Assembly (NCBI RefSeq): GCF_008831285.2
Contig: NC_045144.1
Location: 5,788,575 to 5,852,574, forward strand
Source of the DNA: Nymphaea colorata
Lineage: Eukaryota; Streptophyta; Magnoliopsida; Nymphaeales; Nymphaeaceae
Reading direction: 5' to 3'
Length of the DNA stretch: 64,000 nucleotides
Part shown: piece after piece, positions 1-57,024 of the stretch
How positions within the stretch are numbered: position 1 is the stretch's first letter
Layout: each line of letters starts with the position of its first letter
Notes under the pieces: generated by a model
Databases searched by the model: none
Told to the model about the DNA's origin: nothing
What the model saw: only the letters and a program-made list of their open reading frames with translations
Translations under genes and position numbers: made by a program

Positions 1-136
1 GGCTGGGACGAGGCCGGCGGATGCCTAGGCTTACTCTGCATCTGATTTGTAGACCACTTCAAACAAATGCACAACAAACTCTTAAGACTTACCTCAATCC
101 TAATTGCATTGGGTTAGTAGGCTCATCTATATATGT

Positions 137-329
137 AGGAGCATAGCCAAGGGGCGCCCGCATGGGCCCTGGCCCCACCTCAAAATATTTTTTCTTAATT
201 TACATGTAAATTTTAGAAAATTTCACTTGTTCTATATATAAAAGTTTTGAAAAATGATATTTTTGCCTCAGTCAAAATTTAAAAAACTTTAATTTGGCTC
301 CCCTTATAAAAAAAATTTCTGGCTCCCTG
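137..329. mobile_element. Short non-autonomous element with 9-bp target duplication
   Basis: The segment begins near AGGAGCATAGCCAAGG and ends CTGGCTCCCTG. It is flanked by TATATATGT at 128-136 and again at 330-338, a possible 9-bp target-site duplication, although that sequence is of low complexity. The interior (gccccacctcaaaat, then an AT-rich core, then a region complementary to 'gccagaaattt') recurs at about 29.8, 30.2, 54.75, 55.12, 55.6 and 62.5 kb. Confidence 0.5.
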
Positions 330-1835
330 TATATATGTTATTTTGACTAAAATAAATCTGATGCGACGCAATGTACTAGCCAAATCTTTGAGGGCCATAA
401 ATGAATTGTGAATGGTAGAATATAGTTTCTTAATTCTACCAATCTCACTCTCCCTTGATTCAATTAGGAGAAGGTAGAATTGAATATCAGTGCTTTCGGT
501 CAACATATTGTCAAGATTAGAAGAATCTTTCAATTCAACTTTGATTCATTTACATCTTAGTCTATACAATAATCAGGGCTTAAGCTAATCACTTTTTCAG
601 AATAATCTCCACTAATATATCATTATATATGAAAACTTATAATTGTATAGAAATTCATAAAAGGGCACTGACAAAAAGACCCCAAAAAAAATTCTAATAT
701 CTATGGATAGGTTAGATTCCTCCTGATCTAAATTGGATTCATTTATGAAATGTTTTGCTATCCAAATGACTAGATGAAGATCATGATCATTGTTTACAAA
801 TAATATATCATACTGTTGTGTGCTCTTTTCTCTTACCAACATCAAAATTCAATCTCATTGAACAATCAAACCTATTATTTCTCATCAGTCCCACTCATGG
901 ATTCACCTTGTGTTGAACTTTTCCACATCTGCTGGTTACAACTTCAATGTTTTGTCAAATTGTATTATAGAACAATACTATGTTGTTGTATTTGAGAACT
1001 TGTTGATTGTGTAGACTTTTTTTTTCCCCAAAAAATTATTGTATTCAGTGCAAAATCCATAAGAAATTTGACAGTCTATAGAGTCCCAACCCAAAAATTA
1101 TGTAGACACTACAAATTCCCATAGAAGTTGCACAGTTATTAGGGTCCCAACCTTAAAAAAAAAGCACATCAACAATGCAAACTGCAAAAAAAAAAAAAAA
1201 AAAACATATTTATTTCAAAATTAGGTTAAGGGCCTTTTGATGTTTTAGTGAATAGGTGAAAGGTGTTTTTGCACATTTCTGGTAAACTATAAGTAACGTT
1301 TTCCTCGAAAACCATCATAGAGGTGGTCATTTGAGAATTAGCATGAAAAGTGGAAAGCCTCTCTGTTCAAATCCAACTAAAACTTTAGAATCAATTCGTT
1401 AATAGTGGAAAAATTGAAACACCAATTTGTAATTTTTTCTAAATATCAATCATCTAAGCCATTCTGTGTGATGAAATATAACCTATGCATATTTTACGAA
1501 CATTATGTGTGATTTTGAGTGAAAATAATATTCAAGAATACATGCTTATCTGTATTTTTATTTGAAAATCTACAATTTGAATTAAAAAAAAAAAATTGAA
1601 GGCCATGAAATGAAAAACAAATAGTGCAATTTGGCTCCAACATATGAATTCTAGTATCAACATATAGAGCAAGCACCACTTGATAAATATGAAGTTTTTG
1701 TCGAGGTCAAAAATATCCACGCCCCACATTATTTGTTTCTGATTCATATGTCCTCGTTTCCTCTGCTTCTTCCTCATGTATCCACTTCTTCTCCTTGAAC
1801 AAAGTTCACCATTTTCCCTCTGGTTTCATCTTAGT

Positions 1836-2263
1836 AGGGATGTCAATATATTCGATTTAAATCGGATATCCGATTGATTCGATCTGAAAAAATCGGATAT
1901 GAAAAAAAAATTAATATCCAATTAAGAAATCAGATCGAATTCAAATTTAATAAATAGCATCCAATCAGATTTAGATTCGCATGTACATAAATATCTTATC
2001 GGATTCAGATACGGATTCGGATCAGATTCATTTTTAGACAAATATCTTGTATCTAATGCTATTAAATTTTAAAAATTGGCAAAATCCAATTCAAAATTCG
2101 GATTCAGATTCAGATTGTAAAATTGGATTTTGGATTTGGATTTGAATATGACTTTTCTTTATTCGAATCTGAATCTGAATCCAAATCCGAATATATGAAT
2201 ATCCGAACAAGTGGATATAATTAAAGATATATCAAATCCGAATCCGATCCGCTGACATCCTTA
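1836..2263. mobile_element. Mutator-like MITE rich in GGATTCGGATT, 9-bp TSD
   Basis: The element starts AGGGATGTCAATA and ends TGACATCCTTA, giving short terminal inverted repeats around GGATGTCA. CATCTTAGT lies directly before it (1827-1835) and directly after it (2264-2272), an exact 9-bp target duplication. A TSD of 9 bp is the usual Mutator-superfamily length. The inside is built from degenerate GGATTYGGATTYRGATT units on both strands and has no coding capacity. Diverged relatives occur elsewhere in the window. Confidence 0.7.
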
Positions 2264-2652
2264 CATCTTAGTCAGTTTGTCCTTCTTGGATCTGCATTGC
2301 TCCTCAGAACTTTTTACCGATGCATGGGAAAACAGCCGTCGATGAAAGACCATTTTTATTGGCGTTTGAGGCCAAACGTCTGTGAAAATTAACTTTCACC
2401 AACACAGCCTCCAGGCCTCTCCCTGCAGTGAGGCAAGGCAGCAAGGTGGTCTATAAACTGTTCCTCAAGTTTTCTTTATTTTCAACTAATATTTTTAAAT
2501 ATTTGATTTGTTGTGTATATGGGTGCTCCTTCAGACATAAAAATCTATAAAGGTGCCCCCTCCAAAAAAGTTTTCTCCCTCAGCCACTGCTGCCGCCTTG
2601 ATTGAGAACTTTCTATTACAAAACCAGCTTCTGCATGGCACCATAGAAGTTC

Positions 2653-2667
2653 TCTCTCTCTCTCTCT

Positions 2668-2755
<88 letters not shown>
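2653..2755. repeat. Compound (CT)n...(TA)n(GA)n microsatellite
   Basis: A CT run is followed by a short T-rich spacer, about 25 TA units and about 12 GA units. The CT and GA arms are complementary around a self-complementary TA core, so the tract can fold into one hairpin. Confidence 0.9.
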
Positions 2756-2756
<1 letters not shown>

Positions 2757-3167
2757 TACACAAGAACAAAGTAACTAACAAAGAACCTACCAAAGAGAAG
2801 TTGAATTATTTTTTTGAGTGAGAACTCAAAAGAGGTAAGGAGTAAGGACCTTGGGCTGTGACCAACCCATTATTTATATATGAAAATGGACACAGAAAAG
2901 GGGTAGCAGTGCAATACGCAAGCCCAAAAAACATAACAAGAAAGTAGAAACGGAACAAAAAAAAAAAACAAATGAGGAGGGGAAAATAAAAAAATATTTA
3001 TTTAATCAAGAGCTATGACCTTTCCACAGAAAAAGTATTTTTTTCTCTTACCTGAATCTAATTGACAAAAATAAAAAACAACAAATAAAAATGAAAAAAA
3101 ACTCAAAACACAAAAGCTTCCTCTCTCTCACTGGCACACACATGGCAGGAGGCATTTGAGCTAGCTT

Positions 3168-3169
<2 letters not shown>

Positions 3170-3213
<44 letters not shown>

Positions 3214-3220
3214 TCTCTCT

Positions 3221-3260
<40 letters not shown>
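3170..3260. repeat. (CT)n tract
   Basis: Almost pure CT dinucleotide repeat interrupted by CAGTTTT and CCCTCTCC. It lies at the left edge of the duplicated block that contains the methyltransferase 5' end. Confidence 0.9.
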
Positions 3261-3263
<3 letters not shown>

Positions 3264-3304
3264 AATCTCCTTAGAGGAAAGCAAGTTTCTATTTTTACCA
3301 ACTT

Positions 3305-4058
3305 AAGTTTGGATTAACATGATAAGAAGACAAAAAGTTAGCGCCCTTAAACCAAATTGTAAGTCCATTAGTTTGTTAATACCTGGCAGTTTACATCCAA
3401 ATAGCCTAGTTTTCTACCGATATTTAAAATATACATCAAACAAGTTTTGTCAGTTGGAAGTTTCTTCAAGAAATCATTGTAACAGGAAAGACATCATTTT
3501 TCGTGTTCATTTTCAGAGGGCAAAATAAATTTATTTTTCTGACTTGATAATTTAAATTTTCAAGAACAATCTTACGAATCTTGTATTGATTATTCATAAA
3601 AAAAAATCGGTATATATGTGTAACTGACTCCATGAAAAGTGCCATCCAAACACTATCTGAGTTAACTGTTGCTTTTTTAAATCATGTTTTATATATTAAT
3701 CTGAAAAATAGGGTTTTCTGAACAAGCTATAAAAACCACTTTGTTAAACGAGGCATTTGTATAAATTGAGTTTTTGACATGGATTTGCAAAACATCATCC
3801 AAAACGCTAGACTAAGTTTTGTATTATTATTATTATTATTGCCAATCTTTTTTGGTGTTTTTGGGAATTGCCTCTGTCAGCACCACTCGGACTTGTCCAA
3901 GGATAAAATGGTTTAGGCACTTCCACTGCCAAATTGCTACCCATCAAAATAATCGCTCTGATTCTGGGAGGGGGAGAAAGAGGGAGGGAGGCAATGGCGT
4001 CCGTTGCAGGCATGTCCATTTTGAACTCAGCACCACCAACAAGGTCAGCAGATTCCAG

Positions 4059-4109
<51 letters not shown>

Positions 4110-5937
4110 ACGCACGCAGACGCACGCGCACTCTCTCTCTCTGTCTCTTTTGTTTAGCATTTGTAAAAGAGGACGACTAGCAGCCGGAACTGCATAAATC
4201 CTCATATGTGGCTACACATGCTTGACTTTAGCGGGTTTGGCCTTTGAGCATCAAAACAGCGTTGGGCAGAAACTGCTCAATCGGATGCTTGCCTACGACT
4301 GACTGTCGATGCTTGAGCTTCATCATGATTACTGCAAAATAGTAAACATTTGCTAAAATATTAAAAGATATCTTGAGTTCAACGTGGTACCTTTTGGATA
4401 TGATACTTCCCCAAAAGAGTAGCTGTGGTTATCCGTTGAACTCGTCCATTGTTTTTCTATGTAGTAGTTTCTTGTCATGTTGGGCAGTCTCGTTATACAT
4501 GTACTTACATATGTTCTACTATAACAACTGTTCTTGGGAAATTTGCAACAGATAACTCTTTCTTGACCTAGGAAGGAGATCCAAGTATGGCGTTGTAGAA
4601 AACTGGAACATAATGGGCCTCGCGGGTTGGGGATAGTGGGGTGTAAAATGGGTTGAGCGTCGGTTTACAGTTTGGCATTTTTCTTGACTGCTGCCTGCAC
4701 TAGCTCTGGTTTCTGCACATGTACCGGCTTTCTATCATATCAATAACGGTGCTCCGATACAGAGTGCTATTTACAGCACTGTTGGAGCTACCTGATTCTA
4801 GTACCAGAGAACAGAAATGTACCTGTTAATTATTTCTTCTAAGTAAGGAAGGCCTCTTTGTTTAGCAAGAATATTTACTTGAATTTAACTTCAACTTCTA
4901 ATATTTTAATTATATCTACTTGGGCACTCCGTGTAGTGGCTTGTGTGATGATCATCTTAATGGAATCGTGTAAAAGCATCTGGGGCGGTAGTTAAAATAT
5001 TGACAATCTCTTTCCTTCCTCATGGTGCCTTTTCTAAATTTACATGATCACATTAGTAGAAATGGCTTAGTGAATTTGTTTTTGGCAGTTGGCACCCTCA
5101 GAATAGAACAGCTTAAAACGGTAGCTTCCTTCACTGGTCTTGGAAATTGGAATTAAGGCCTTGAAGTTCAAAGCGAATCTGATAGGCAGGGTACCTAGTC
5201 TAATCTCTATCTCTTCACATAATCTGACAGAGCATGTTAGCCTAACCCCAGCTTTCCAACTGAAAAAAGAAATAATAGCATCTACCCAATTTGATGGCCT
5301 TTCTTTCTCGACATATAATTTTCCGTCTCAGCAAACAGAATCTATATACAGATTCTTTAGCCTCCATTTATTATGAAATAATGTCTAAGTTTTGGCATTG
5401 TTACATGTCAGTTCTGTAAACCTGGCTACAAAGAAAATTGGAGTTGAGACCTTCATATTGAATGAATGAACTACGTCGAAACTTTTAATACCAAGGAGGC
5501 AAGGATGCTTCTTTTGTACAAATTGCATACCAAAATAAAAAGCTTTGGTGGCTCATAATGCATTTGAAACTGTAGAATATAAAGCAATATAGTCTTGTGA
5601 TTTTTATTTTAGTGATATAAAAGTATATATTAGATGAATGACAAAAGACTTAGCTCAGAGTTTGACTAAAGCATGTTGTTTGTGATTGCAGAACAAGAGC
5701 CATTTTACCTTTGTTGGTTGCTGATGTTGTAACTCTTATGCATCCATGCTTTAATTCACTACACGGATGCACTAACAAAGTAAATATCCCATTCACACAT
5801 ATGGAGGCGATCAGTATGAGCTTGCCGTCAAGAGCATTCAAGGATTTTTCAAGGTTAAAGAATAAGGTTGCTGCAACAAAGGGAGTCTTTGCTGTATGTG
5901 AACCCCTTCCTCCAGATAGGCCACTATGGTTCCCCAG
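3305..5937 (+). repeat. Segmental duplication, copy A (LHCA6 5' region fused to methyltransferase)
   Basis: This block matches 12255-14786 in order and orientation. Shared landmarks include AACAATCTTAC at about 3565 and 12551, the exon beginning ATGGC at 3994 and 12848, TTTACAGCACTG at about 4770 and 13620, GATTCTAGTACCAG at about 4794 and 13645, and the exon-2 region ending TATGGTTCCC at 5934 and 14786. Intron lengths are nearly equal, about 1.72 kb in each. The last 89 matching bases differ at six positions by eye, so the coding end is far better conserved than the intron. Confidence 0.9.
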
Positions 5938-7588
5938 ATCATTTAAATATAGTCGATGTGCATTCCAATACCCAGATAAGAGTTTTCTGTCGAAATCTAG
6001 CTTGAAAAATGGAAGGTGGTATTTGGAGAAAGGTAGGGGAAGTGAATATGGAGGTTCAGAGATGAAGAAGAGGAAGGAGACCAGTGGGAAGAAGTACAAG
6101 AAGTATGAGAAGAGTCCCATCGGTGGACGTAATGGTCCTTCTTGGGAACTTGCCGCCAATAACTACTTTTCAAAAGGTAGAGATGATGCTATGAATGAGA
6201 ATGTGGAGGTTCTAGTTGGAGACAGTGAGATTGAGAAGAAGGCCACCATGAAAACAAGCTACAATAAGTTGGAAGACAATGCCAGAGCCTATCTTTCAGT
6301 GGATAATAGAGGTGGAGTGGATGATAGCATGAGAAAGAAAGTTGGATCAGGAGGTGATAGAGGAGGTCTCAAAGGCAGGTGGAAGAGAAACCAATCTTTT
6401 GGTGGTGAGGAGGATGGGGCGAATGACCACCATTTTCTGCAAGGTTGGAGTAAGACAGCAATGAAGGGAAAAGATTGGATGCCCCAGGAAGCAGAAGATG
6501 ATGAAGATTCTGATGAGGAAAATGAAGCGGAAGAGGGGAAAAAGAAGCTTACCAGCAATTCAAGATGGAGTGGAATTAGGGACAGATACAGTAGAGTCCT
6601 GGATGCAAGAGATGAATTTGATAAGCCAGATGTTGTTCAATGGAACAGGCAAGAGAACTGGGGTCAGAAGGTGTGGAAGGAAGCTCATGAATCCACTCTG
6701 CCAAAGATAGTCGGTGAGGTGGTTTATGGTGTTGGCCCTGTTCTAGCTGCATTAACCACTGGGAGGAGAGAATTTTATGTTCTGTATGTTCAAGAAGGTT
6801 TGGAGTTGGGTGGCAGCAACAGGAAGAAGGACAAGAAAAGTGTAAAAATGGTGATGAGGATTGCGGAGAGGATAGGACTGAGCATGAAAGAAGCATCAAA
6901 GCATGATCTCAACATGCTTGCAGATAATAAGCCTCACCAGGGATTCATTCTTGATGCATCTCCATTGGATATGGTGAGCATTAGGCAGTTGGATGCTAGT
7001 TCATGCAAGGAAGAACAAGGACCCCTTTGGGTTGCTCTGGATGAGGTCACCGATCCCCATAACTTTGGCGCTGTAATTCGGTCTGCTTATTTCTTTGGTG
7101 CAGCAGGAGTGGTAGTCTGTGCCAAGAACTCTGCTCCTTTGAGTGGGGTTGTTAGTAAGGCCAGTGCTGGTGCGCTTGAATGCATGGAGCTGAGGTCTTG
7201 CAGGAATATGATGCAGTTTCTGTCAATGTCTGCTGAAAATGGGTGGCGGGTTCTTGGAGGTTCAGTCTCTTCAAGGGCTTTGCCACTAAACGAGGTCCCT
7301 TCTGCTGGTGGGCCTACCATTCTAGTGTTGGGTAGTGAAGGAAAAGGGTTGAGACCTCTGGTCGAGCAGTCATGTACGCAGTTGGTAAGGATCTCTGCAA
7401 ATTTTTCTGTTGGTAATGGTGAGGATGAATACCAAGATGAAAGCGAGAGATCCTCAGGTGTAGAGTTTCAGTCCTTTCTTGCTGTTGAGAGCTTGAATGT
7501 CAGTGTTGCTGCAGGCATTCTTCTCCATCATTTATCTGGAAATGCTAAACCCAGGTCGATCCTAGAGAGTGTCCAGGCCATTGAGTGA
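3994..7588 (+). CDS. SpoU-family rRNA 2'-O-methyltransferase with LHCA6-derived N-terminus
   Basis: Predicted exons are 3994-4043 and 5692-7588 (648 residues). The C-terminal third is a SpoU (TrmH/RlmB/MRM1-type) enzyme, which transfers methyl from S-adenosylmethionine to a ribose 2'-OH, normally a guanosine of large-subunit rRNA. A substrate-binding segment (YGVGPVLAAL) lies near residue 360. The knot-forming motifs follow: DPHNFGAVIRSA near 470, LGSEGKGLRPL near 563 and LNVSVAAGILLHHL near 618, with the expected Asn, Arg, Glu and Asn residues. Residues 100-350 are charged, acidic and lysine-rich, and look disordered. Residues 1-98 come from the LHCA6 locus: a start exon ([15 protein letters not shown]), about 24 codons of former intron, then [13 protein letters not shown] and [14 protein letters not shown]. 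This should target the enzyme to plastids. The exon-1 join keeps frame (AG+A). An alternative start is ATG 5801, which LHCA6 lacks. Methyltransferase identity is firm; the 5' model is inferred. Confidence 0.9.
4063..4145. repeat. (CT)n(CA)n microsatellite in intron 1
   Basis: CT units run into CA units and back to CT, 20 bases after the predicted donor at 4044. LHCA6 has a shorter CT tract at the same place (about 12908-12928), so the tract predates the duplication and expanded in this copy. Confidence 0.85.
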
Positions 7589-10500
7589 ATTCTCAAAGTT
7601 GAAATTTATCATAGATGCTGTTGTTTGCGTCCTTTTTCTTCTTCTCTCTCTTTCTGCTCCTTGTTCCGGAATATATATTTGTTTTGGAATGTACACAATT
7701 CCATGGGAAGAGAAAAAAGATCATGACCTATATGGTCTGCCAAACTGAAACTGACATCGGGTGGGTTCAAAAATTTCTCTTTGATCCATCCTCCTCTACA
7801 TTCTGCTGCATAAGAGAAATGGTGTGATAGTTGGAGAATGATGGTGTCTCCCAGGTTTTTATGTTCATCTGCTGGTAATTTTTGGGTGATGTATTTCAAG
7901 AAAGGGGGATTGCCAGTTCCACAGAATGACTTTCGGATTCCTTGATTTAAAAGGGACAGATGTTTCCACCTTTGGCGAATGTTCTATCACAATTTCAAGT
8001 CCAAATCCCCTCGATCTCGATAACTGGAAAATAGAGATATGCGTGAAGTTGTTGTGGGAAGGCATTTTCAAGCTATATGTTGTATTATGAGTGTAGAGCA
8101 AACTAGTAAGCTTTCAGACGGGAGGATGGCTTCCTATTTTCAATATATAGAGGCAAAAGTTGGGGCATAGAAACAGTTGCAACTGATTAATTTGATTTCA
8201 ACCTTGACTATTGCTAGAACAATTTTTTTTTCTCAGAAATATATGATGGGTCTCCAAGAATGTAAGTCCAAGAACAATGTGGTAGAAGTGTGTAAAGAAG
8301 TAAGAAACATCATATGCTGAAATGGAATATGTGCGTTATAATAAGAATCCCTATTCATTTGAATCTTTGGTTGAAAGTTGTCGATGGACAGAAAGTCTGA
8401 CATCTACAATTATTCTCATGTTGGCTTTGAAAACTCTCTCTCTCTCTCTTTTCCTGAGAAACATCTGGTCTTTGGAAAGGGTTCCATGGTAGGATGAATT
8501 CTTATGTGCACATGACGTGGCTGGCATGGATGTCTGCCATGAGAATCGCAATGAGCCAGTTAATTTGATTGTCAAGTTCACATTAAAAGCACGGAAACTA
8601 TGGAGACCAAGTGGGGTTGTTATTAAAGGTGTTTTGCCAATCAATCATCTTCTATAGTTCCTTAAAATCCTGACAATTTGGCAGCACACCTATTCTACTT
8701 CAAGACATGTTCTTGTCAGAAATATATTGTCGGTTAATTAAAGTGACATTATCGGTGACAATATCTTGCTTCCAATTAAACTCTGATATTTTCAAATCTT
8801 GATTTTTATAAGTGCAGAATAGAGAAGTAGATGGCAGCCAAAAATTTCAATTTACTGATTGTTATTTATTTAAACTACGTTGGAAATTTTTTTAAAAAAA
8901 AAATCAATATTGTGAAATAATAGATCCAAGAGGAACCTTAAATTTTTCCCATTTCTTCAATGAGTTTGCAAAACTATAACTTAAAATCCTTGATCTCTCA
9001 TCTAACAGCCCAAAACTTTAAAAGCATGCCAACGATTATGGCTCCTATTCTTCTCGTAGAAACTAAGTTAAGAATAAAGATTATTGTTCTATGCTGATAT
9101 GACTTTGATAGTTATATGCATTAATTGGGAGGATCAATTGCTATCAACTGTGCGAAGGTAAGGGAGCTGGTTGCTTCGAGTTTGATTTCCCAGGCTTTGT
9201 GCAAGTGAGTCCCAAGCATATCCTTGGAGGCCTGATAGAAACTAACCATGAAAAGGATTGCCCAAAAAACTACCATTTTTCTTGTGGGGTTAAACATGAA
9301 TGGTTGACTTTGGATTTTGCAAAAAGAATGATAATTAGTAAGGAATTCTGGATATGAATGATTTTAGTGAACTTTTGGTTCATATTTAATCTTGCGGACA
9401 TTGTACAGTTGGCTAATTCCATATTATGTGGGTTTAAGGCAAGAAAGGGTTCCTACTTGAGTCATGCATATCCTCCTCCTTGTTCTACCCCTTGATTTGT
9501 AAGTAACTAGCAAGTTGTATCATGATATCGTCGTGCGAGATGGTGTAAGTTTTGATTAAGCCGCTTCGTGGACATGTTTCGATCCCAGTCAAAACCTTAA
9601 TTTGTCGTCTCCCCACTCCATCTCTCTGCCTATTCCTTAGCTTAAGCTTGTGTTAAAGCTAGGTTATACAGACTGGTTGAGGCGTTATGATTGTCCCTGG
9701 TGGCTTCTGAAAGTGATGACAACACCACAATTATATCATGGTACCAGTCACAACAACTACCACCTCCACCCTTGATCTTGGAGATTCTAGACAGCTTTTA
9801 GTTGAGTTTTCTTTTCTGATTGATTACCTTTGATCTTTACCAGCTAGAGATATTTAGCATGTCTGTTGTTCATTGTGTAATGGTTTCATTGCATATAAGT
9901 TTGTCTTATGTTTTCTATAAATTTTAATGTTCCAGATGGTTCAGTGCATATGATCCTTACACAGGTTTAGATGTGGAGCCATGAGTTCTCGACCTAGGTC
10001 AGTAACCAGGCGAGGGAGACTGCTCAAGCAGCTGGTTTTAGCTATATCAATCAGACTTCAAACCTTCTTTCCTGCACAATTTCCTTTAATGTAAAAAAAA
10101 AAATATACATCAGGAAGTATCTAGTTAAGACAAGCTATACCGTGATCATTCTTTGCTATGCGTGTGACTTTTTCTTGCTTCTAAAATAAGCAAAAACATG
10201 AACATCCAGCACCACATGGAGAACCATTCTCCTAATCCTCAACTGTTCCTGTTAAAAAATTTTCATTCTCCTACTAAGGGAGCTTGATTTACACCGAACT
10301 GGCTCAGCTCCATTGAGAATTTAGTCTTTATTTCTTGGAAACATATACAATCGTGTACATATACAGCTTTTTTAATCTTTTTAAGCCCATATGTTCAGGT
10401 TAAAGTAAAAGATGTGGAGGAGGCATTTAGACTGCTAAATACAACAGTCAGCGACGGATCCTGCTTAGTACAAAAAATTTTTGTGCAATTGGGTTTGCAA

Positions 10501-12254
10501 GACATTTGAAATTAATAGGGTGGCATATCAGGAACAGTCGTGATGTTGATAATTATTTGTTAAGACCAGTATAGCTAAGAACAGTATTTGAAGTCTGCTC
10601 CATTGTTGATATATTATTTATCAAGAACATTATAGTGAGCTAAGTCCGGCCGTTCCATCTCTACTTGGGAGACCGAGCTAGTGTCACACCTTGTACCTGT
10701 TTCAGATCCTCATTGTACAACAGTTTCGAATTTGTTATTTTACTTCAAAGTGAGAGAGTTAAATCTGTGTGTTTACCTTACAGATTATGGATTTTCTCAA
10801 GAGCCTGGACAACCGGAGGAAGAGGCCATCTGGGAATGAATTACTGATCATTGAGCTAGTCCAATGTTCTGCTGAACTTCAAGCAGATAATGTTTTTCTT
10901 GTTTGTAGACCATTGTGCCAATAATCATACAGTTTTGTTAAGATTTCCTTTTTCCCTTTCTAAACGCCATTATATCACTGACTAATAAAAGTATTTGTGT
11001 TGATTTGCTCAACTGTTTACATTTTTTTTTACATATGAACACAAAAAAATTTTTACAGCCGTTTCAGTGTACTGTTTATATGTGAGCCATTTTGTTATGT
11101 TTAGTTGAAAAAAAAGAAAAGAAAAGAGACGGTCGTTAGCGGCCGTCTTTCTTGCGTCAAAAATGGTAATGATAGGCTCTCACTACGTCCATCTTCATTT
11201 ACGGGAAATTAGCGTCAATAAAAGGTTGCTGACATGAACACCACGTTGTAATGGCAGTCAATAGTGACAATGTAATTGCCATTGGAGGGATACTTTAAGA
11301 CAGTCTAAATCGTCAGTGTACATACTCTCACCATGTCTATTTTCATCACTGTATATTAACTTCAGCAACATTAAAAGATCGTTCCTAAAACTTATTGCAA
11401 CCGTCCAAGATTTCGTCACTGTAGGGGATGCATTGCCGACTGTGAGATAAAACGTCAGAAAACCCCATTGAGACCATAGCATCTTTGAGCCATCGACCCC
11501 TCTTATCGACACTTTTTTACGTCTGTGATTCATACACTGATGGTAGAAACGCTTTACAGCGTCAAAGAATTCTTGGCTTGAAAAGGCATGGTTCAACAAA
11601 TGATATCAGACATGAACTTTCAAAAGTCGATTTGATTTCATTTGAAACAACCCAAATTTTAATTTCATGCTTCACGTCAGCCATGAATTTATGAAATTCA
11701 ACATTTCAGCATACATACGCTCATTAGTTCTACATGCTAGATTATGTTTTTTCTTGGCATTAGGTCACTCATTTTCTAGTTTCCAGAGGTTTTAAAACGC
11801 TCAAACTGCCTAGATTTCACTGCTTTTACTGCATAATGAGGTTGAATTTACCAGACTACATAAAACATCAAAATTTAGAATTTCTGGAAGGATCGCTATC
11901 TAATGCTCTAGAGTGCTCAATCCATAAGAGCTGTTTGGCATTACAAACACTTGGGATTAATCTACCAGTGAATAAACCATAGAACACTAACAAAATATTC
12001 CATCTGCCAAACGACCCCATAGTAATACATTTTTGTCATCTTCAATGCTTCCATGCATAATGAGGAACATTGTTGGCATATCAGATCCATGACCCACTTG
12101 GACGCAACATATTGTTGTCTTAATTTAAAACCTTGAACGACACCTAAAGAATTGGTGGATAGTAAAAAGAGACAAGCTTTTCTATTGTGAAAAAAATATT
12201 GACTTTTTGCACCATTAATAAAAAAACAGTCATTTTCCATCAACTCTAGGATAT
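7589..12254. other. Intergenic stretch between methyltransferase and LHCA6
   Basis: No gene recognised on either strand. The first few hundred bases are presumably the methyltransferase 3' UTR. The only distinctive structure is the CGTCA-rich segment at 11130-11680. Short open frames around 7615, 8351, 11258 and 11962 match no family I know. Confidence 0.55.
11130..11680. repeat. CGTCA-rich segment, possible transposon subterminal region
   Basis: CGTCA occurs about seven times in 550 bases, all on the plus strand, next to an imperfect palindrome, GACGGTCGTTAGCGGCCGTC, at its left. Clustered short motifs of this kind resemble the subterminal repeats of En/Spm (CACTA) elements. I could not find clean CACTA termini or a target duplication, so the assignment is tentative. 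Confidence 0.3.
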
Positions 12255-14786
12255 TAAAACTTTAGATTGAGTTAATGTGATAAAAAGAAAAAAAAATTAA
12301 AGCCCCTTAGTCGAAATTGTAGCTCCGTTAGTTTGTATTGAGTATTGACTTTCTTAATGAATTCCCATAATAGTAATATCTGGACAGATTATATCCTAAT
12401 AACTTTTTTATTGATATTTAACGTAAACATGCAATAATTTTTTTTGTTGTGTTGTAGAAAGTTCTTCACGAATAGTTGTATCAGTAAAGTAATTGTTGTG
12501 TTAATTTTAGAGGTAAGATAATAACTAGTAACTTGACCATTAGTTTCTCGGGAACAATCTTACAAATCTTGTTAATTATTCATAAAAGGATTTAGGTGTG
12601 TGGATTGAAAATATGAAAAATTAGTTTCTTTCACTATTGCCTATTTTTTAGATCGTTTGAAAATTGCCCGTTTTCCAGCAATTATCATACTTGTCCATGG
12701 ACAAAAGGACATGGACCCACCTATCTGCGACCTCGAGCTTCTGGTCACATGTTTAACTTCTACCCAACGAGATAATCATTCTTCTTCCGAGGGAGGGAGA
12801 GGGGAGACAGAGAGAGGGAGCGAGAGGGAGAGACAGAGAGGGAGGCAATGGCATCAGTTGCAACCATGTCCATTCTGAACTCAGCACCACCAATAAGGTC
12901 AGCACATTCTCTCTCTCTCTCTCTCTCGCACACACGCACTCTTTTGTTTAGCGTTTGTAAAAGAGGACCATTACCACCAGCCGGAGCTGCATAAACTCTT
13001 ACTTGTGGCTACACCTGCTTAACTGTTAGTGAGTTTGGCCTTTGAGCATCAAAATGGCATTGAGCAGAAACTGCTCGATCGTAGACTTGCCTATGACTTC
13101 CCTCCTACCAAACAAGCCCTTACTCTCTGTTCTTGAGGTTGATCGTGATTAGTGAAAAATAGTAGACATTGGTGCCATATTCAAGACATGTTGAGTTTGA
13201 CGCGGAATCTTTTGGATGTGATACTTTTTCCAGAAGAGTAACTGCGGCTATTTTTACGGGTTTGAACTCTTCTGTTGTTTTTCCATCTGTTAGTTTTTGG
13301 CATGTTGGGCAGTATATTATACATGCATTCTTACGTACATTCTACTATAACAACTATTTTTGGGAAATTTTCAACGGAAAACCTTTTCTTGACCTGGAAA
13401 GGAGATAAAGGATAGCCTGATTGAAAACTGGAACACGATAGGTTTCGCGGGTTGGGGTTTGTGGGGTAAAATGGGTTTAGCGTCGTTTTACAGTTTGGCA
13501 TTTTTTCTCGACCGCCGCCTGCATTAACTCTGATTTATGTACATATACCGACCTTGTATCATATCGACAAGGGGCGGTCGTAAAACGTGTCGGCCAATTC
13601 GCTTCGATAGAGAGTGATATTTACAGCACTGCAGGGGATACCTGATTCTAGTACCAGTGAACAGAAATGGTATAACAATTTCATGTAACTGTTAATTCTT
13701 TTTTGCAACTAAGGAAACCTTTTTTGTTTAGCAAGAATATTCACTTAAAATATTGACAATCTCTTTCCTTCCTCTTGGTGGCTTTTCTAAAGTCACATGA
13801 TTAAATTAGTAAAATTTACATGATTAAATTAGTAGAATGGATTTTCTGGATTTAAAATTCATGTCGGCCATTCTTTTATTGAGAAATTTTTTTACACCCT
13901 TAGAAGAACAGCTTACAAACAGTAACTTCATTCACCTGTCTTGGAAATTGGAGTTAAGGCCTTCAAGTTCAAAGCCAATATGGTAAAGCAGGTTAATTAG
14001 TCTATTCTCTGTCTCTTGGCAATATCTGACCAAGCAGATTAGCCCAACCCCAGCTTTCCTATTGACAAAAGAAAGGATAGCGGATAGCCTCATTTATATG
14101 GATTTAATGGCCTTTCTGTCTCAACATATAATTTTCTTCTGAACGATAACAAATCTATCTACGCATTCCTTAGCCTCCATTTAATATGAAAGATATATGT
14201 CTCAAATATGGCATTATTACATGTTACCTCTGTAAACTTGGCTACAAAGACTTCGAGCTCCGACCTTCATATTGAGTGAGCCATATATGTCTCAATATTT
14301 AATACCAAGGATGCTTCTTTTGGCACGAACTGCAGAGAATTTGCCGAAGCCAAGCTCCCACTTCAAAATAAAAAGCTTCAGTGGTTCATAGTGCATTTTT
14401 AAATGTACAATATAAATCAATACAGACTGGCGGTTTTGTTTTAGTGATATGGCAGTTTATACTTTATAGGTTATACTCGTATTAAATGAATGGCAAAAGA
14501 CTATAGTTTAGAGTTTGATTAAACAATGCCGTTTGTGATTACATAAATAGAACCATCTTAACTTCTTTGGTTGCTGATGTTACAAACCTTGTGCATCCAT
14601 CCTTTATTTGCAATGCAGGTACACTAACAAAGTCAATGTCCCATTCGTGCATAGGGAGGTGATCAACATAAGCTCATCATCAAAGACATTCAAGATTTTT
14701 TCAAGATTAAAGAATAAGGTGGCTGCAACGAAGGGGGTCTCTGCCGTATGTGAACCCCTTCCTCCAGATAGGCCACTATGGTTCCC
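12255..14786 (+). repeat. Segmental duplication, copy B (LHCA6 promoter to exon 2)
   Basis: This is the counterpart of 3305-5937. It carries the intact LHCA6 splice acceptor CAATGCAG at 14618 and continues into the rest of LHCA6 exon 2 ([10 protein letters not shown]), which copy A lacks. It is therefore the source arrangement and copy A the derivative. A small insertion unique to copy B sits at about 13570-13605. Confidence 0.9.
12787..12847 (+). promoter_or_regulatory. GA-rich 5' leader of LHCA6
   Basis: A purine run (GAGGGAGGGAGAGGGGAGAC and similar) ends directly at the start codon context GGCAATGG. The methyltransferase copy has the same feature at about 3965-3993. GA/CT-rich leaders are common in plant genes; no TATA box could be assigned with confidence. 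Confidence 0.5.
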
Positions 14787-17700
14787 AGGAAGCTCCCCAC
14801 CTCCATGGCTTGATGGCAGGTAATTTGCCTTCTTTCACATACATGAAAATTAATAATCAGCATCATGTCCTTTCACAAACCATAAGTTGGTAACATTTTA
14901 CTTGCAGAACGATCAAGTCCCATGGTTTGAAATTCAAAATTTTATGGTCACCACTTGATGTGTGTATGCCATCAATCCAGATCATAATTTTTATCTGTTT
15001 TCAGCTTTTTTTATGTGACATTATTTTTTTTGTATTTTGATTGCTCTTATGTAACAGGCATACATGTTATTATTTTCTACAAGGATGCAGTTTGTAGTGT
15101 TGGTTCCATGTTATTATTATGTGTTTTTTATTTCAATAAAGAAAGAAGTATGACTAATGGAGAATAGACATGTTATGATCACATTGCATGTAATTTTCAT
15201 GCTACACATCTATGTCTGATCTATGTCATTGACTATATTGACATATGTGATCATTGATTGGTTTAGCTACATTAACTTTAGTAAAGACTGCTTTAGTTTT
15301 TTGTCAATATGAATGTGCAAAATTGATGGAAATGACATTTTATAAGGTAATCAATTTAAGCTCATAAGATTACCATATAATGTAAGATTGTGTAATGACA
15401 TATTTGGCCGGAGTAGGAGATTGTTGGAATCTGTATGTGGGCATTTATATATTATTAACAATTCGAACATTATATACTATCTAAGGGAGATATTCATAAA
15501 GTGATTAATAAAACCTGATATTTTGTTATTTCATAGGGTATGAGGTGATTTTAATGTGTGGATACCAGTATCATCTCAGATTCTATGATATCCTGAATCT
15601 GAAATTTCATAAAGTATAAATGGTAGTAGTCTCCAAGGTCATATATGGAGAGAATTAGAAATTTCTTCTTTCCTCATATGAAACAAAGAGTATTCACATA
15701 GAGGCCTTAGTAGGTCTTGCTCTGTATCTTCTCACTTGGATTCAAATGCACTTTTGCTATTATGATTAAGATTTTATTCAATGGTTCAACATGAACACAT
15801 ATTCAACTTAGGACATCAAGTTTTTACATTTCAAAGCAAGCAACAAGATGCCTTCAGTTAGATTCAAATGTACCATTCCATCAATTCCCATGCCTGCAGA
15901 ACGTGTGAGGGAATAGAAGCCAGTAAACATGACGTAATAGGATGACACGACCAGCCAGAGATAACTAGCAGGAATGGACAGTTTGAAGCTTGCTTTTCAT
16001 TTTATCAATTAGGGGAGCCCATGTAGAAGAAATAAAACATTGGATTTGTAAAGGATGCCCAAGATAAGCATAATTTAAGTCTCCTGGAGGACAGTTGAAG
16101 ATAATGGACTTTAGAAGCAGATATGTATTCATAACTGATGACTTGGTAACAATGGTATTGTCCTCAACATTATTCTAACAGGACTTGGTTTCCTATATAT
16201 TCTTGGAGGTTACAAAGAGTACCTCCAATGGAGGGCTTTGAGATTGTGCATGAGCGTAGACTGGCCCTTTCTGTTGCAGAAAGAGCTGTTTGTGTGGACA
16301 TTCCGCTACAGGTTGGGCCAACAGTTGAATGACCTACAATGGTATGTTAAAATGTTGAGGAGGAGACAAAATGAATCGTTTTCTCCAATTTAGAAGGTGT
16401 TAAAGCACCTTCCGTGAAATGTATATACACTTTGTGAAACAAACTTGTTTCTTCTCTATAACTACCGTGTGTGATGGGAAGTAGGTAGACATTGAAGTGA
16501 AAGGGAGAAGTCGACTCCTGAGTCTCTTAATCAATGAAGCCAATCATTTGTTTAGATATAAGTCTTTCTCTTTTAAGAATTCGTGGGTTACACTATTCCT
16601 TCCTAGCACACCTGTTCTGCATCATCCTTTTTATTTTTCCAATTGCTAAGGTGTTTCTGCCAAAGTGCACATAAATTAGTTATTTCCTTTTCATTTTTAC
16701 TCTTCAAACTTACCACTAAATACGTAGTAACTCATTTATTGTTACACGCTGCAGCCTCCCTGGTGATTTTGGTTTTGATCCGCTTGGGTTAGGTGAGTAA
16801 TTATTTCCAAGAAATGCTTTGCCTTGCTTTCTTAATGTGATTTTGATAGGCTGATAGCCAATTTCAAGAAATCGCATCTTCCTTGTCAATTGGAGATATT
16901 TGCTTTCTAAGAAAGTAAAACAATTCACAATTAGTAGTAGTAATAATAATAATTAATAAGCAACCACTACCAAAACAACTGTGCATATAATTTCATTAAA
17001 TTATCATTTGTGACAAATCATGTGGTAATTCAAATCTTGTTAGATGTAAAATCAAATTAAGACAAACCACTCTTCTTCATCTCTAGCACCTACCTGGTTG
17101 GCCTAAATTAGTAACATTTAGTAACTAACACAATATCTTTTCACATGACTTGTCAAAGTTTGAGCCAATCAACGTGTCCAAAGAATTACCATATAAGCAG
17201 TAGTAGTACGTATTCATGGGGGGATTGGCAATTTTTCATGTCCACCTTGTTTGAGTGAAATGTGTTGAGATTGCTTTCTTGCAAAAACTGGCTTCCAATG
17301 GGAAACTTGTGTCTTCCTAAACAATGCCTATTTTTCCAGGTTCGGACCCAGAGCTGCTGAAATGGTTCGCCCAGGCTGAGCTTATGCATGGCCGATGGGC
17401 CATGTTGGGTGTCTTTGGAATTCTTGTCCCAGAAGTGCTACAGAACCTCGGCTTCATCGACGAATTCTCATGGTACACTGCAGGAGAGCAAACTTACTTT
17501 GCCGATACGTGGACCCTGTTTATAACCCAAATGGTGCTCATGGGCTGGGTAGAGGGTAGGCGATGGGCTGACATGCTCAACCCTGGCTGCGTCGACATCG
17601 AGCCCAAGTATCCAACCAAGAAAGGCTACAAACCTGATGTGGGTTACCCAGGCGGGCTATGGTTTGACCCATGGATGTGGGGCAGAGGGTCGCCTGAACC

Positions 17701-18771
17701 AGTCATGGTGCTGAGGACCAAGGAGATCAAGCATGGGAGGCTGGCCATGCTAGCCTTTGTTGGCTTCTGGTTCCAGGCAGTCTATACAGGCGGAAGCCCA
17801 TTGGACAACCTGATGGCACACTTAGCTGATCCTGGCCATGCCAACATCTTCTCAGTAAGTACTTGATTGTTTCTTTGATTGCATGCATGCTAGTATGAGC
17901 TGTGACAAAAGTCTGAGCTCAAGGAAGCTTGATCTAATGTTCCATGCTCCCCGTAGCTAATTCTTGCTTGGGAACAACTTAGCTCAGCTTAAGCTTGAGT
18001 CGGGCTGTCTTACTCCAGCTGACTATGTGACCAAACGGTTCAGAGGCCGGCTTTTGGTCATAATCCATGAACATGGAAACCAAAAGGTTTTTTTTTCTCC
18101 AGAAAAAAGATAAAAATACTCTTTCCTAAAACAGACGAGCACAAGGCTTTCCGTTATCCCCTGAACACTCAAGCTGCACTGGTCTTTTGGTTTCATGGAG
18201 GTGTTTGGAAACATAAACACTGAGGTTGAGTTCGAGATTCAAGGCTGCATAAAAGGGTGTGGTTTGAGAGTTTAAACAAACTGAAGATCTCAGTAGTATG
18301 GATCATGCTACATGTTAAAAACCATGGATTTAAAGTCGGATGGGGGGCATTCTAATCTTTAAATCCATGGACATGAGATCCTAGGTCACCATGGATCTTA
18401 GATCCTTTGTGAAACAAACACAACCTAAGTATTTTGTTTATCCAAAAGATTATGGTAGATTCATTGAACACACTTGGTGTTTTGTGAATATGCTGCAAAG
18501 GTTGAGATAGATTTCATAATACACTCACATAATTATGGCCAAATGCCCCTTTAGGTTTTTTTCAAAATAATAGGCACATAATACAGAGACAATTATGTAC
18601 GTGTATATAATGGGCTGAACCACCCATTTTGAAACTGGTTTTTCCAACTTTAATCTCACTTTTCTCACCTATTTTTGTATTGTTTCTTTGTTTTTATATT
18701 TTCTTTTCACAGCTATATTAGTCGTTTCAAAATGGATAGATTCGAGGGAGAGAATGGGACTTAAAAATCTC

Positions 18772-21246: not shown

Positions 21247-24200
21247 TCAGAAGTCATAGTCTATATCCGTTGCATTAGTTGATGCAGAGTGGCTAACCAA
21301 CTGCCCATGTTCATCATATCGGTCAAGGTTCTCACAGGGTGCAGGAAAGATAGTGCCATATACTTGGCCCTGAACATAAGAGCACTGAAAGACATGTTTT
21401 TTCTTGTACTGAAGACCAACAGACATATCTCGGAATACCACACCCTTCACCGGTATCTCCTTGCTGCCTTGAATGCGAACAGGCACACGAACATTCTGAC
21501 CATGAATACTCTCAAAAACTATGTCCTCAAGTATGGGAAGCGCCTTGGGATCATAACCCTCATCAGGATGCTCATTGTAATCGGTTTTGATGACAATCCC
21601 GACTCGAAGGTCATCAAAGGTAACATTATGGTAAGAAATATGTCGCACATAACCACCTCTCCCTGCTGCTGTCTTGATTCTGACCCCACGCCTAGACTTC
21701 CAAATGTGGACATTGTCCAAGCTGACATTAGAAACACCCCCAGACATCTCACTGCCAATGGATACTCCTGCGCTGCATAAAGTTCATGGATCTTGCATTT
21801 AAGTGGAATTTATAATAATATGAGCATCCAAGCAAGCAAAGATGCAAATTGATTCGACACGGTAGACATTTGCAAATGGCATTTTTATGCAAGTTGTTTG
21901 CTAATGAGCGTGAAATAGACCAACATATTTTAAAGGCAGGTTTTATAAAAACTAAAAAGTTCCATACCATGCTTGAGTTGAATTTGGAATAATGCAACAT
22001 CAAACCTAAAAGCATAACTATTAACTACCACCCTATACCCCATTCATGAAATGCAAAGATGCTGGAGTTTATCAAAAAGCAACCATGGATTATGTAGTCA
22101 ATGAAAAAGCACCTTACCTTACCATCGAACGAACAACTAAATTCCGAATATGAATATTGGTAGATGGCCGACCATAATTAATTCCATATTGATCCCACCC
22201 ACTCTTTATTGCAATTCCATCATCACCAACACTTATGTAACAATCCTCAATTACTACATTCTCGCATGAGTCTGCATGTAGGCAAGTAACATGATACTAC
22301 AATTAGTGCTCTAAATTATGAAAAGAGAAACAAGAAACAGAAAAAGGCATTCCAATATGGGCAAGGCTAAAAGGATTAAGGATAACCAAGATACAGTTTT
22401 AATCACAAATAGATAAACAAGGAGATGCAAGTAGGGTAAACAATGTGTGCTGCCTTTCGTTTCTGTATCTAGAGAACTCTCCAAAAATGAGACGGGAAGA
22501 ATAAGCAAAACATGCACCTATGGGCATGTTATTATAGAAAATTTAATCAACCGTCAAATCACATTTTCAAAGGGATATTGCAGGACCATTCAGTTGATCC
22601 TATCCAACCATTGACAATGCAAAAAAGTAGACAATAATGGAAGTACACAATTAAAGATCATAACGGTGACAATTATCATCAAAATAGATGCCAGACAGAG
22701 TTGATGTGTATATCATCTGCTCATCCACAAGGTTTTACCAATAGTACATCCTAGATAGGGAACTCTTCTCATTCAACTTGAAGGTCTTAAAGTCTGGCCA
22801 CCTTGCCAGGAAAACACCATTCTAACCTCATAGTACTAGAGATAAGAGAATGCCCTATCTTACTGTCAAAAGTAACAGGCAACTGGGTTACAGAGTAACC
22901 AGAAAGGTTAAGAAAACAAATCCAAAATATATTGTCAAAAAACATGTAGATGATGATGCCAGTCATATTTAGACTGATCATCTGCAAAAGAAAACAATCA
23001 TATGTTGTTTTTTTGGTGTATCCAGATCCTAAAGTGTGTAAGCACACTACCCTACAATTTGGCAGCTTTGAGTTTTAGTTTCTGTTGAACCTGAGTTAAA
23101 GTGCAATCCGAGACTCTTGAGAATGAAAGCTAGCTCCTAAGTCAAGAAATTATGGAACAAGTTGTATAATATAATATGTCTCTCTTAGGATTTCCACACA
23201 CAGGAAAAATTGCAAGTGAATCAGTTTTGGGACAGAAGCGAGTGTCCAAAGCATGAAGTTCCAATAAATCACACTTGATTTTCCCTAAATAACCAATTAT
23301 TTAAAGACCCAGCAAATTTTATAGCTGGAATAAAGCATATACTTACCTGGATCAATGCCATCTGTGTTTGGAGCATCATGCAACGGAGCTAAAATTGTGA
23401 CCCCAGATATATGTACATTCTTGCAGTCAAAAGGATGAAAATTCCAAAATGGAGAATTGCGTAAAGTGATGTTTGAGACCCGTATGTCAGTTGACCACAT
23501 TATCTGTACAAGAGGACCCCTAGTATGATTAAGAAGCTTTTTCCGGTGCTTCTGCCACCATATCATACCTTGTCCATCTATCGTGCCATTGTGGCCTGAA
23601 TTGCAAAGAATAATATTTCAAATCAGAGAATTCTGTTACCTTAAACAGTAAAAAATAGCTAAAATAAAATTCATGGCATGCAAACATTGACAAGAAGACC
23701 ACATTGGTTGTAGCACTTTTGTGCTTAGTACATCAAATAATCAGTGCTTCAATCGCTTGCTACATAAATAGAAGTGACATTCAAACTGGAAGCAAACGGT
23801 GATATTATCAATTGCACAGGAGCAATCTGATTTTCCTCCAAAGTCTCATGCTTAGGATTCAAAACTGGAAAGGATGTTAGCATTCAGAACAGTATCTTAA
23901 CATTCACTATCAAATATGCAACCTTAGATGGTAGAACTAGCTGTTGATAATGCATGTGCTCGTAATTGGATTGCAATGAATACGAGATAGATAATCTTGG
24001 TCTCTTCTCTATATCTGAACAATATATCCTCTCTTATTGACAATGTTAACTGTTATCCTCTCTTTTGCAACCAAATAACTCTCGCATAGAAGACATTTCA
24101 CTTATACCCATCATTGCATAGAAGTAAACAACATACAAACAGCCCAAGGATGCACGTGAAACCGAAAATATATAAGCTTCAAATGTTTTACTTTTAAAAA

Positions 24201-27200: not shown

Positions 27201-27615
27201 CGAGGAACAGAGTCATATGACTTGTCAGATTGAAGGGCGCAGTCAACCAGATCCCAGGAGGAACATTGAGCTGTCCTCCCCCATGCCTCGCAATCTCCGT
27301 GACAGCCTTTTCGAACGCCTCCGTGTTCACCTTCTTCCCGTCGCCGACACCCCCGAAATCCGTCAGATTAAACACCTTATGCCGGAGATTCGGCACCGGC
27401 CGGGCGGGAGCCCGCAATGGCGCCTGCCTGAAGATCCAGAGCCCGTTGAGGGAGCTCTTCTGCCAGAAGAAGACGGTCAAGAAACAGCCGATCCAGAAGA
27501 CAAGTAGCAACACCTGGTAACGGCAGGAGAGCAAGGAAGAAAAAGCAGTCGATATCCCGCGACGTAGATCCGACTTGCTCCGATGGAACCGAGGAAGTCC
27601 GTACACGTCGGCCAT
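21247..27615 (-). CDS. Membrane-anchored polygalacturonase-like protein (GH28)
   Basis: Exons on the minus strand: 27615-27172, 25348-25228, 23595-23347, 22271-22118 and 21772-21247, 497 residues. Junctions are GT-AG with matching phases. One hydrophobic span near residues 35-52 (VLLLVFWIGCFLTVFFW) after a basic N-terminus predicts a type II anchor, with the parallel beta-helix domain in the lumen or wall. GH28 landmarks run in order: DFGGVGDG near 77, GPRYGSLIHG, HNGTIDGQG, NTDGID, VGDDGIAIKSG, SAGVSIGSEMSGG and RRGVRIKT. GH28 enzymes hydrolyse alpha-1,4-galacturonan in pectin. The NTD, DD and RIK motifs are present, but the usual G-H-G motif is replaced by SAGVSIG, so a catalytic-site His is absent. 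Other plant members of this anchored subgroup also appear to lack it. Classical pectinase activity is therefore uncertain. It converges on LHCA6. Confidence 0.92.
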
Positions 27616-55689: not shown

Positions 55690-56160
55690 ACGCCAAATGG
55701 ATTAGATTCAAATTGAATATCCAATCAAGTTCCTTCATGAAAGTCAGATATGAAATTTAACAACTGATTAAGAAATCAGGTCAGTTTCAGATTTAAAAAA
55801 TTACATTTGATTGGATTCTAATTCACATTTGACTTCAAATAAATATCTGATTGTATTCAGATTTGGGTCGAATTTGGATTTAGTTTTAAATAAATATCAT
55901 AGATCCATTATATTTATATATTTTGAAAGTCAGTTATTAGTATATAATAATGTGTTCAGATTCAGATGTACATTTGAACGATGGGTTTGGTTTTGGTTAT
56001 AAATGTACAAGTCGGATTCGGATTGGGTTAATTTGGATATGGTTATTGTATAGACTTTTATTCTATGCATTCAAATCCGAATTCGAATCAGCATAAATAA
56101 AATATAAGATAAATTGGATAAGATAAAAATTACATCCAATTCAGGTAAATGGTGTTTCCT
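55690..56160. repeat. GGATT-type degenerate repeat
   Basis: Dense words such as GGATTAGATTCAAATTGAAT and TTCGGATTGGGTTAATTTGG, similar in content to 41265-41690 and 42355-42715. No clear ends. Confidence 0.5.
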
Positions 56161-56942: not shown

Positions 56943-57024
56943 GGAGAGCCGAGAGCGTCGAGCTCTCTAAACAAGGAACTGGACCAAACTTTCCACTGCG
57001 AATTCGACAGTGTTACGTTGGGCG

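Follow-up and report, generated by a model that had tools for sequence, protein, structure and literature searches.

In a 64,000-nucleotide stretch of the Nymphaea colorata genome (RefSeq assembly GCF_008831285.2, contig NC_045144.1, positions 5,788,575 to 5,852,574 of the forward strand; hereafter the window, whose numbering is used unless a contig is named), we found that the start exon, first intron and most of the second exon of the photosystem I gene LHCA6 have been duplicated and fused in frame to an RlmB/MRM1-type methyltransferase. We refer to the fused gene as the chimera. A preliminary description of this DNA had stated that the methyltransferase frame begins with the N-terminus of LHCA6 and that LHCA6 itself, about 9 kb downstream, was the donor.

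A duplicated LHCA6 segment fused to a methyltransferase frame

Using blastn to compare window positions 1–8000 with 8001–64000, we found that 3968–4883 matches 12822–13749 (71% identity, E = 5e-158) and 4992–5934 matches 13745–14786 (73% identity, E = 4e-166), with weaker pieces further upstream (3300–3376 versus 12258–12336; 3377–3601 versus 12374–12587). Positions 3968–5934 are a diverged copy of the 5′ part of LHCA6 (12822–14786), on the same strand and 8.85 kb upstream of it, as the preliminary description had placed them. The block had rightly been called a duplication, but it extends further upstream than claimed, to about 3300. Exon 1 of the chimera aligns with that of LHCA6 over 50 bases with six differences and no gaps, and intron 1 shows a divergence of 0.255 with 24 gaps over 1410 sites. 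The donor can be identified by DNA homology beyond the coding part, as exons, intron 1 and upstream DNA all match. Similarity to LHCA6 ends near 5934, inside LHCA6 exon 2, and the frame runs on into the methyltransferase to 7588; exons 3994–4043 and 5692–7588 joined give 648 stop-free codons in frame with the methyltransferase. An abrupt end of similarity with the same frame continuing had been noted before, and the earlier count of six differences by eye in the last 89 shared bases (5846–5934) proved exact.

LHCA6, whose four exons (Table 1) read as a single frame and which may have an additional short last exon, encodes a product that matches Pfam Chloroa_b-bind at 173.7 bits. Its closest solved relative is 'Photosystem I chlorophyll a/b-binding protein 6' (7wfd_A6, E = 3.3e-124), which we take to be the Arabidopsis protein, and the next best match to its main exon in the genome is 64% identical. 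Since a 16-residue segment is conserved in other LHCA6 chains of the PDB, we assigned LHCA6 as the donor.

When the genome was searched with the duplicated segment, with the protein and with the methyltransferase DNA, two further loci emerged that hold both sides of the same joint. The C1 copy (C1:23625361–23627386) corresponds to window 3673–3882 and 4817–6632, lacks exon 1 and has stops and frame changes in its methyltransferase part. The second copy (C7:3050675–3052332, minus strand; hereafter C7b) corresponds to window 3794–4922, 5523–6056 and 6143–6202. In both, the methyltransferase is truncated and decayed, and alignment showed that the joint and differences from LHCA6 are common to the three chimera copies. 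As the same joint occurs at two other loci, the fusion is not an assembly artefact and predates the copies. Intron divergence of the window copy is 0.179 to C1, and 0.142 (4160–4922) and 0.076 (5523–5691) to C7b; since the joint is shared and the intron is further from LHCA6 than from C1, the fusion preceded the divergence of the window and C1 copies. With the water-lily genome duplication as a clock (synonymous divergence, KS, peak of about 0.9, with the family split near it at 147–185 million years ago, according to the available part of PMC7015852), the fusion would very roughly be 30–50 million years old.

Other routes to this arrangement were considered and rejected. A methyltransferase retroposed into a full second LHCA6 copy was not favoured, as LHCA6 14787–18200 had no match in 7589–12258 or 1–3300 (E up to 0.1). 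Tandem duplication of the whole interval left no trace, the comparison of 1–3300 with 7589–12258 giving one 20-base inverted stretch only. Gene conversion would not account for the high identity of 5846–5934, where synonymous sites have diverged like the intron (synonymous divergence, dS, 0.34 versus an intron divergence, K, of 0.255). Transposon capture of the two dead copies was likewise dismissed, as no inverted repeats were found at their ends among the listed pairs; direct matches near the ends, of 7 bases in C7b and 5 bases in C1, were taken as chance.

Table 1. Positions of the parts of the chimera and of its donor gene in the window
Feature	Position	Strand	Remarks
Chimera upstream region	3300..3993	+	Homologous to LHCA6 upstream 12258-12847; 3300-3601 clear, 3602-3967 weak
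Chimera exon 1 (16 residues and 2 bases)	3994..4043	+	Copy of LHCA6 exon 1; start and donor site predicted from LHCA6
Chimera intron 1	4044..5691	+	Copy of LHCA6 intron 1; new acceptor tgcag at its end; splicing predicted
Former intron sequence of LHCA6, coding if acceptor 5691/5692 is used	5692..5766	+	No in-frame stop in any of the three chimera copies
LHCA6 exon 2, first half; fast-changing transit-peptide part	5767..5845	+	Has acquired Met codons in frame (5801, 5816)
LHCA6 exon 2, second half (30 residues); end of transit peptide and start of mature LHCA6	5846..5934	+	6 differences in 89 bases
Fusion joint	5932..5938	+	Common to copies at C1:23.626 Mb and C7:3.051 Mb
RlmB/MRM1-type methyltransferase body, intronless	5938..7588	+	PF08032, PF00588, TIGR00186
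LHCA6, donor gene with upstream region	12258..17866	+	Exons 12848-12897, 14619-14819, 16755-16792, 17340-17866

The enzyme and its place in the genome

The frame read from 5693 matched PF00588 at 97.4 bits (cut-off 29.7) and PF08032 at 40.7 bits (cut-off 22.8), a SpoU methylase domain preceded by an RlmB-type substrate-binding domain, and it passed the RlmB equivalog model TIGR00186 by a narrow margin (166.1 versus 160.15 bits). The earlier assignment to the SpoU/MRM1-type rRNA methyltransferases is borne out by these three models. In the PDB the same frame matched RlmB (1gz0, E = 1.4e-19) and, over query residues 58–83, LHCA6 (7wfd, E = 4.6e-5), which together with the blastn identities of 71–73% upholds the description of its N-terminus. 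The motifs DPHNFGAVIRSA and LVLGSEGKGLRPL, which we take to be SPOUT motifs, align with 1gz0 (E. coli RlmB) in the significant stretch; SLNVSVAAGILL, presumably a further SPOUT motif, can be aligned with 1gz0 only in another, negatively scoring stretch, although the TIGR00186 match (342–614) includes it. The likeness to bacterial RlmB and human MRM1 covers the substrate-binding and SpoU domains. Unlike these enzymes, the chimera has a long plant-type N-terminal extension and an LHCA6-derived front.

The genome was searched with TIGR00186 exon by exon, so that counts are lower bounds and an intron-rich RlmB gene could escape. Matches were found in at least eight places, of which the window locus alone scored above the cut-off. 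A candidate second RlmB gene on C95, a 42-kb contig, reached 159.3 bits, just under the cut-off, and has an open frame only when TAA and TAG code for glutamine. The SpoU-family frames at G000:C95:22640-23398 (L031, on this 41.9-kb contig) and G000:C107:45426-46127 (L034, on a 50.4-kb contig) extend to 339 and 735 codons, respectively, with code 6. Because both are open only with TAA and TAG as glutamine, they look like assembly contamination from an organism with a ciliate-type code. Two near-identical, adjoining SpoU-type genes with introns lie at G000:C3:28218501-28226500 (L040) and G000:C3:28230001-28237500 (L041). This pair was rejected as RlmB, since the exons of one, joined by eye, gave 93.9 bits without PF08032, which places it in another SpoU type. 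As the C95 and C107 frames look foreign and the C3 pair is of another type, the window gene is the only plant RlmB-type gene found in this genome.

The enzyme most likely acts on the guanosine of plastid 23S rRNA equivalent to E. coli G2251. The SpoU-family gene At2g19870 is presumably the Arabidopsis orthologue of the window enzyme. Its protein was found in the chloroplast nucleic-acid-associated fraction of mustard, and is listed without a predicted transit peptide in the portion of PMC4212876 at hand; an excerpt of PMC12386182 counts it as chloroplast-targeted. A plant SpoU protein of the chloroplast, left unnamed, appears among genes of chlamydial origin in a passage of PMC2376095 that holds nothing decisive. 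Arabidopsis methylates the G2251 equivalent in its plastid rRNA (as Gm2269) and in its mitochondrial rRNA (as Gm2538); the plastid sites did not change in fibrillarin mutants, from which the authors infer stand-alone enzymes (PMC8053127, in part).

Predicted translation, splicing and targeting of the borrowed segment

Between 5846 and 5935, the chimera and LHCA6 differ by six synonymous changes and one replacement (replacement divergence, dN, 0.015; dS 0.339). On a neutral chimera branch of half the intron divergence, about 8.7 replacements would be expected here (P = 0.0017), and 5.8 on a shorter branch (P = 0.02). In the same interval the dead copies have seven replacement and three synonymous changes. 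The window copy has no private change among the 89 sites of 5846–5934, compared with 7 of 165 sites in the adjoining intron, 2 of 71 in the former-intron part and 9 of 82 in the first half of exon 2. Against C7b, exon 1 shows three synonymous changes and no replacement over 48 bases; against LHCA6, it shows three of each. Gaps are absent from 5692–5934, where three to four are predicted from intron rates (P = 0.02 and 0.04, two values that are not independent). Under drift, the 648-codon frame stayed open in none of 2000 simulations at K = 0.085 or at K = 0.04, and in 1.9% at K = 0.02. This constraint at the codon level suggests that the borrowed LHCA6 segment is translated.

The first half of LHCA6 exon 2 has had a different history: 5767–5845 changed faster in the chimera than the intron did, mostly by replacements, and against LHCA6 gives a dN of 0.271 and a dS of 0.515 (5768–5845). 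This may possibly reflect adaptive change in which the transit peptide was retuned.

In LHCA6, an AG precedes the start of exon 2 at 14619. This AG is kept in the C1 copy and lost in C7b, and at the matching 5765–5766 the window chimera reads GG. At 5691 all three chimera copies have tgcag where LHCA6 has tacat. An acceptor at 5691/5692 joins exon 1 in frame and makes 75 former intron bases coding, a stretch free of stops in each of the three copies. The unspliced frame of exon 1 runs into a stop. Because the LHCA6 acceptor has been lost, exon 1 is most likely spliced to the new acceptor at 5691/5692. Downstream of the joint, no Met codon occurs in 41 codons (5938 to 6061), and the enzyme would therefore need an upstream start for an N-terminal targeting part.

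Residues 1–83 of the fused protein include 14 serine or threonine, nine lysine or arginine and three aspartate or glutamate residues. The LHCA6-like PDB chains 7ewk_6 (211 residues) and 9grx_w (215 residues) start one and five residues before VCEPL, respectively. If these chains are the mature proteins, the transit peptide would be cut near KG-VSAV, and the chimera would have the whole LHCA6 transit peptide, its cut site and about 14 mature residues.

The explanation that best fits these data overall, and which we consider probable, is that the LHCA6 5′ segment was duplicated onto an RlmB/MRM1-type gene, giving a 23S rRNA methyltransferase that is directed to plastids. The duplicated piece would have comprised LHCA6 upstream DNA, the first exon and intron and most of the second exon; placed about 9 kb upstream of its source, it would have been fused in frame with the body of an rRNA 2′-O-methyltransferase, presumably in place of the original first exon of the enzyme gene. 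With exon 1 and the acceptor at 5691/5692 in use, the first 80 or so residues would form a plastid transit peptide from LHCA6, some 14 mature LHCA6 residues would remain at the front of the enzyme, and the enzyme would methylate the G2251 equivalent of plastid 23S rRNA. A gain of start exon and plastid targeting signal by segmental duplication had been proposed before; the copied exon 1 and the constraint on the borrowed segment agree with it, and plastid import is a prediction. Several observations weigh against this explanation. Nine AGs between 5640 and 5939, one of them at the joint, could join exon 1 in frame, so that the exact splice junction is not fixed, although the in-frame AG at 5659 leads to an immediate stop. 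The former-intron part gives a mixed signal (dN/dS 0.038/0.252 versus C1, 0.099/0.118 versus C7b), and the constraint tests cover about 90 bases with small numbers and shared branches. The narrower RlmB model NF008386 was missed at 103 versus 366 bits, as expected for a plant protein.

The AG at the joint, which would start an exon at 5938 and is common to both other copies, also favours an alternative in which a native first exon of the enzyme, located elsewhere, is spliced to about 5938, or in which the start lies downstream, the LHCA6-like part being merely adjoining DNA. We regard this as very unlikely, as codon-level constraint at 5846–5935 is seen in the window copy and not in the dead copies, the same joint is found in both other copies and no Met codon lies between 5938 and 6061. 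A somewhat stronger contender, though still an unlikely one, accepts the fusion and lets translation begin at the in-frame Met 5801 (MEAISMSLPSRAFKDFSRLKNK...), exon 1 being leader or unused; the shortened LHCA6-derived targeting part might then serve plastids and possibly mitochondria as well. In its favour, each of the three chimera copies has Met 5801 and Met 5816, which LHCA6 lacks, and the methylation occurs in both organelles of Arabidopsis (PMC8053127, in part), while only one RlmB-type locus lies above the cut-off here. A start at Met 5801 leaves unexplained that the exon 1 frame is kept relative to C7b, without replacements, and that exon 1 of the chimera and of LHCA6 align without a gap, small as these numbers are. 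We find it hardly credible that the window copy has been misassembled or is a pseudogene: the other two copies of the joint have decayed, but 648 open codons with RlmB domains are improbable under drift, the joint recurs at two other loci with intron divergence of 14–18%, and this is the sole locus above the RlmB cut-off.

Upstream region and known parallels

The preliminary description had further proposed that the enzyme gained a new promoter, that of an antenna gene. Homology of the upstream DNA agrees with this at 3264–3601, which scored 196 against LHCA6 upstream DNA versus a maximum of 54 in 100 shuffles; the proximal 3602–3967 is badly diverged and only just exceeds shuffled sequence (58 versus a maximum of 36 in 100 shuffles). 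Corresponding words in the chimera and LHCA6 upstream regions are AAMAATCT (3565 and 12553) and GATAA (3321 and 12279), CACGTG occurs in neither region, and TATA-like words are found upstream of the chimera and are absent upstream of LHCA6; for all four we assume the usual promoter-motif meanings. The two genes may possibly share an antenna-type promoter. LHCA6 is itself a linker between photosystem I and NDH more than a bulk antenna protein, as far as the available text of PMC8211685 goes, which qualifies the wording of the earlier proposal.

A single RlmB-type gene with a plastid-type front end raises a question about the mitochondrial rRNA of this plant. As Arabidopsis has the same methylation in plastid and mitochondrial rRNA, capture of the only RlmB-type enzyme by an LHCA6-type 5′ end would either have forced dual targeting, with Met 5801 or Met 5816 as a possible mitochondrial start, or have cost the mitochondrial mark, and rRNA methylation would follow photosynthesis-gene regulation; we offer this scenario as a speculative and rather doubtful one.

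Gain of a targeting signal by duplication of another gene's signal is already known, and what is unusual here is the donor, LHCA6, and the recipient, an rRNA-modifying enzyme that appears to be single-copy. In Malpighiales, duplication of a Cu-Zn superoxide dismutase gene supplied the transit peptide of nuclear rpl32 (PMC8018952, in part). The chimera, for which import is predicted, resembles rpl32 in that exon shuffling provided a plastid transit peptide, the source being a duplicated nuclear gene whose product is a plastid protein. It differs in that rpl32 had newly moved from the plastid genome, whereas the gene of the rRNA-modifying enzyme has presumably long been nuclear and its donor still lies 9 kb away. 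According to an excerpt of PMC2631504, the presequences of rice rps11-1, Arabidopsis sdh3 and carrot rps10 were copied from atp2, hsp70 and hsp22, respectively. There too an existing targeting signal was duplicated onto another gene; unlike the chimera, those are cases of mitochondrial targeting in newly transferred genes. Within the open-licence literature, we found no paper with both Lhca6 and SpoU, and nothing on a chimeric Nymphaea gene with a transit peptide.

The best-known borrowed targeting signals belong to genes that had recently left an organelle. In the present case, the front end appears to have been replaced in an rRNA-modifying enzyme whose gene presumably was in the nucleus beforehand, and a single genome preserves the donor, the recipient and two dead versions of the joint. 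The system makes it possible to ask which parts of a borrowed transit peptide persist, the region of the likely cleavage site being nearly frozen and the rest fast-changing. The rebuilding of a splice acceptor can be studied in it as well, as can the question of whether an RNA-modifying enzyme encoded by one gene is able to switch organelle or regulation in one step.

Elsewhere in the window, 1842–2240 is repeat-like, being 76% identical to DNA directly upstream of the window, and 1850–2046 within it matches about 55701–55898. An open reading frame of 1076 residues at 57010–60240 (plus strand) was named by eye as a leucine-rich-repeat protein, and two on the minus strand, at 21247–21747 and 27049–27615, resemble polygalacturonase exons, likewise by eye.

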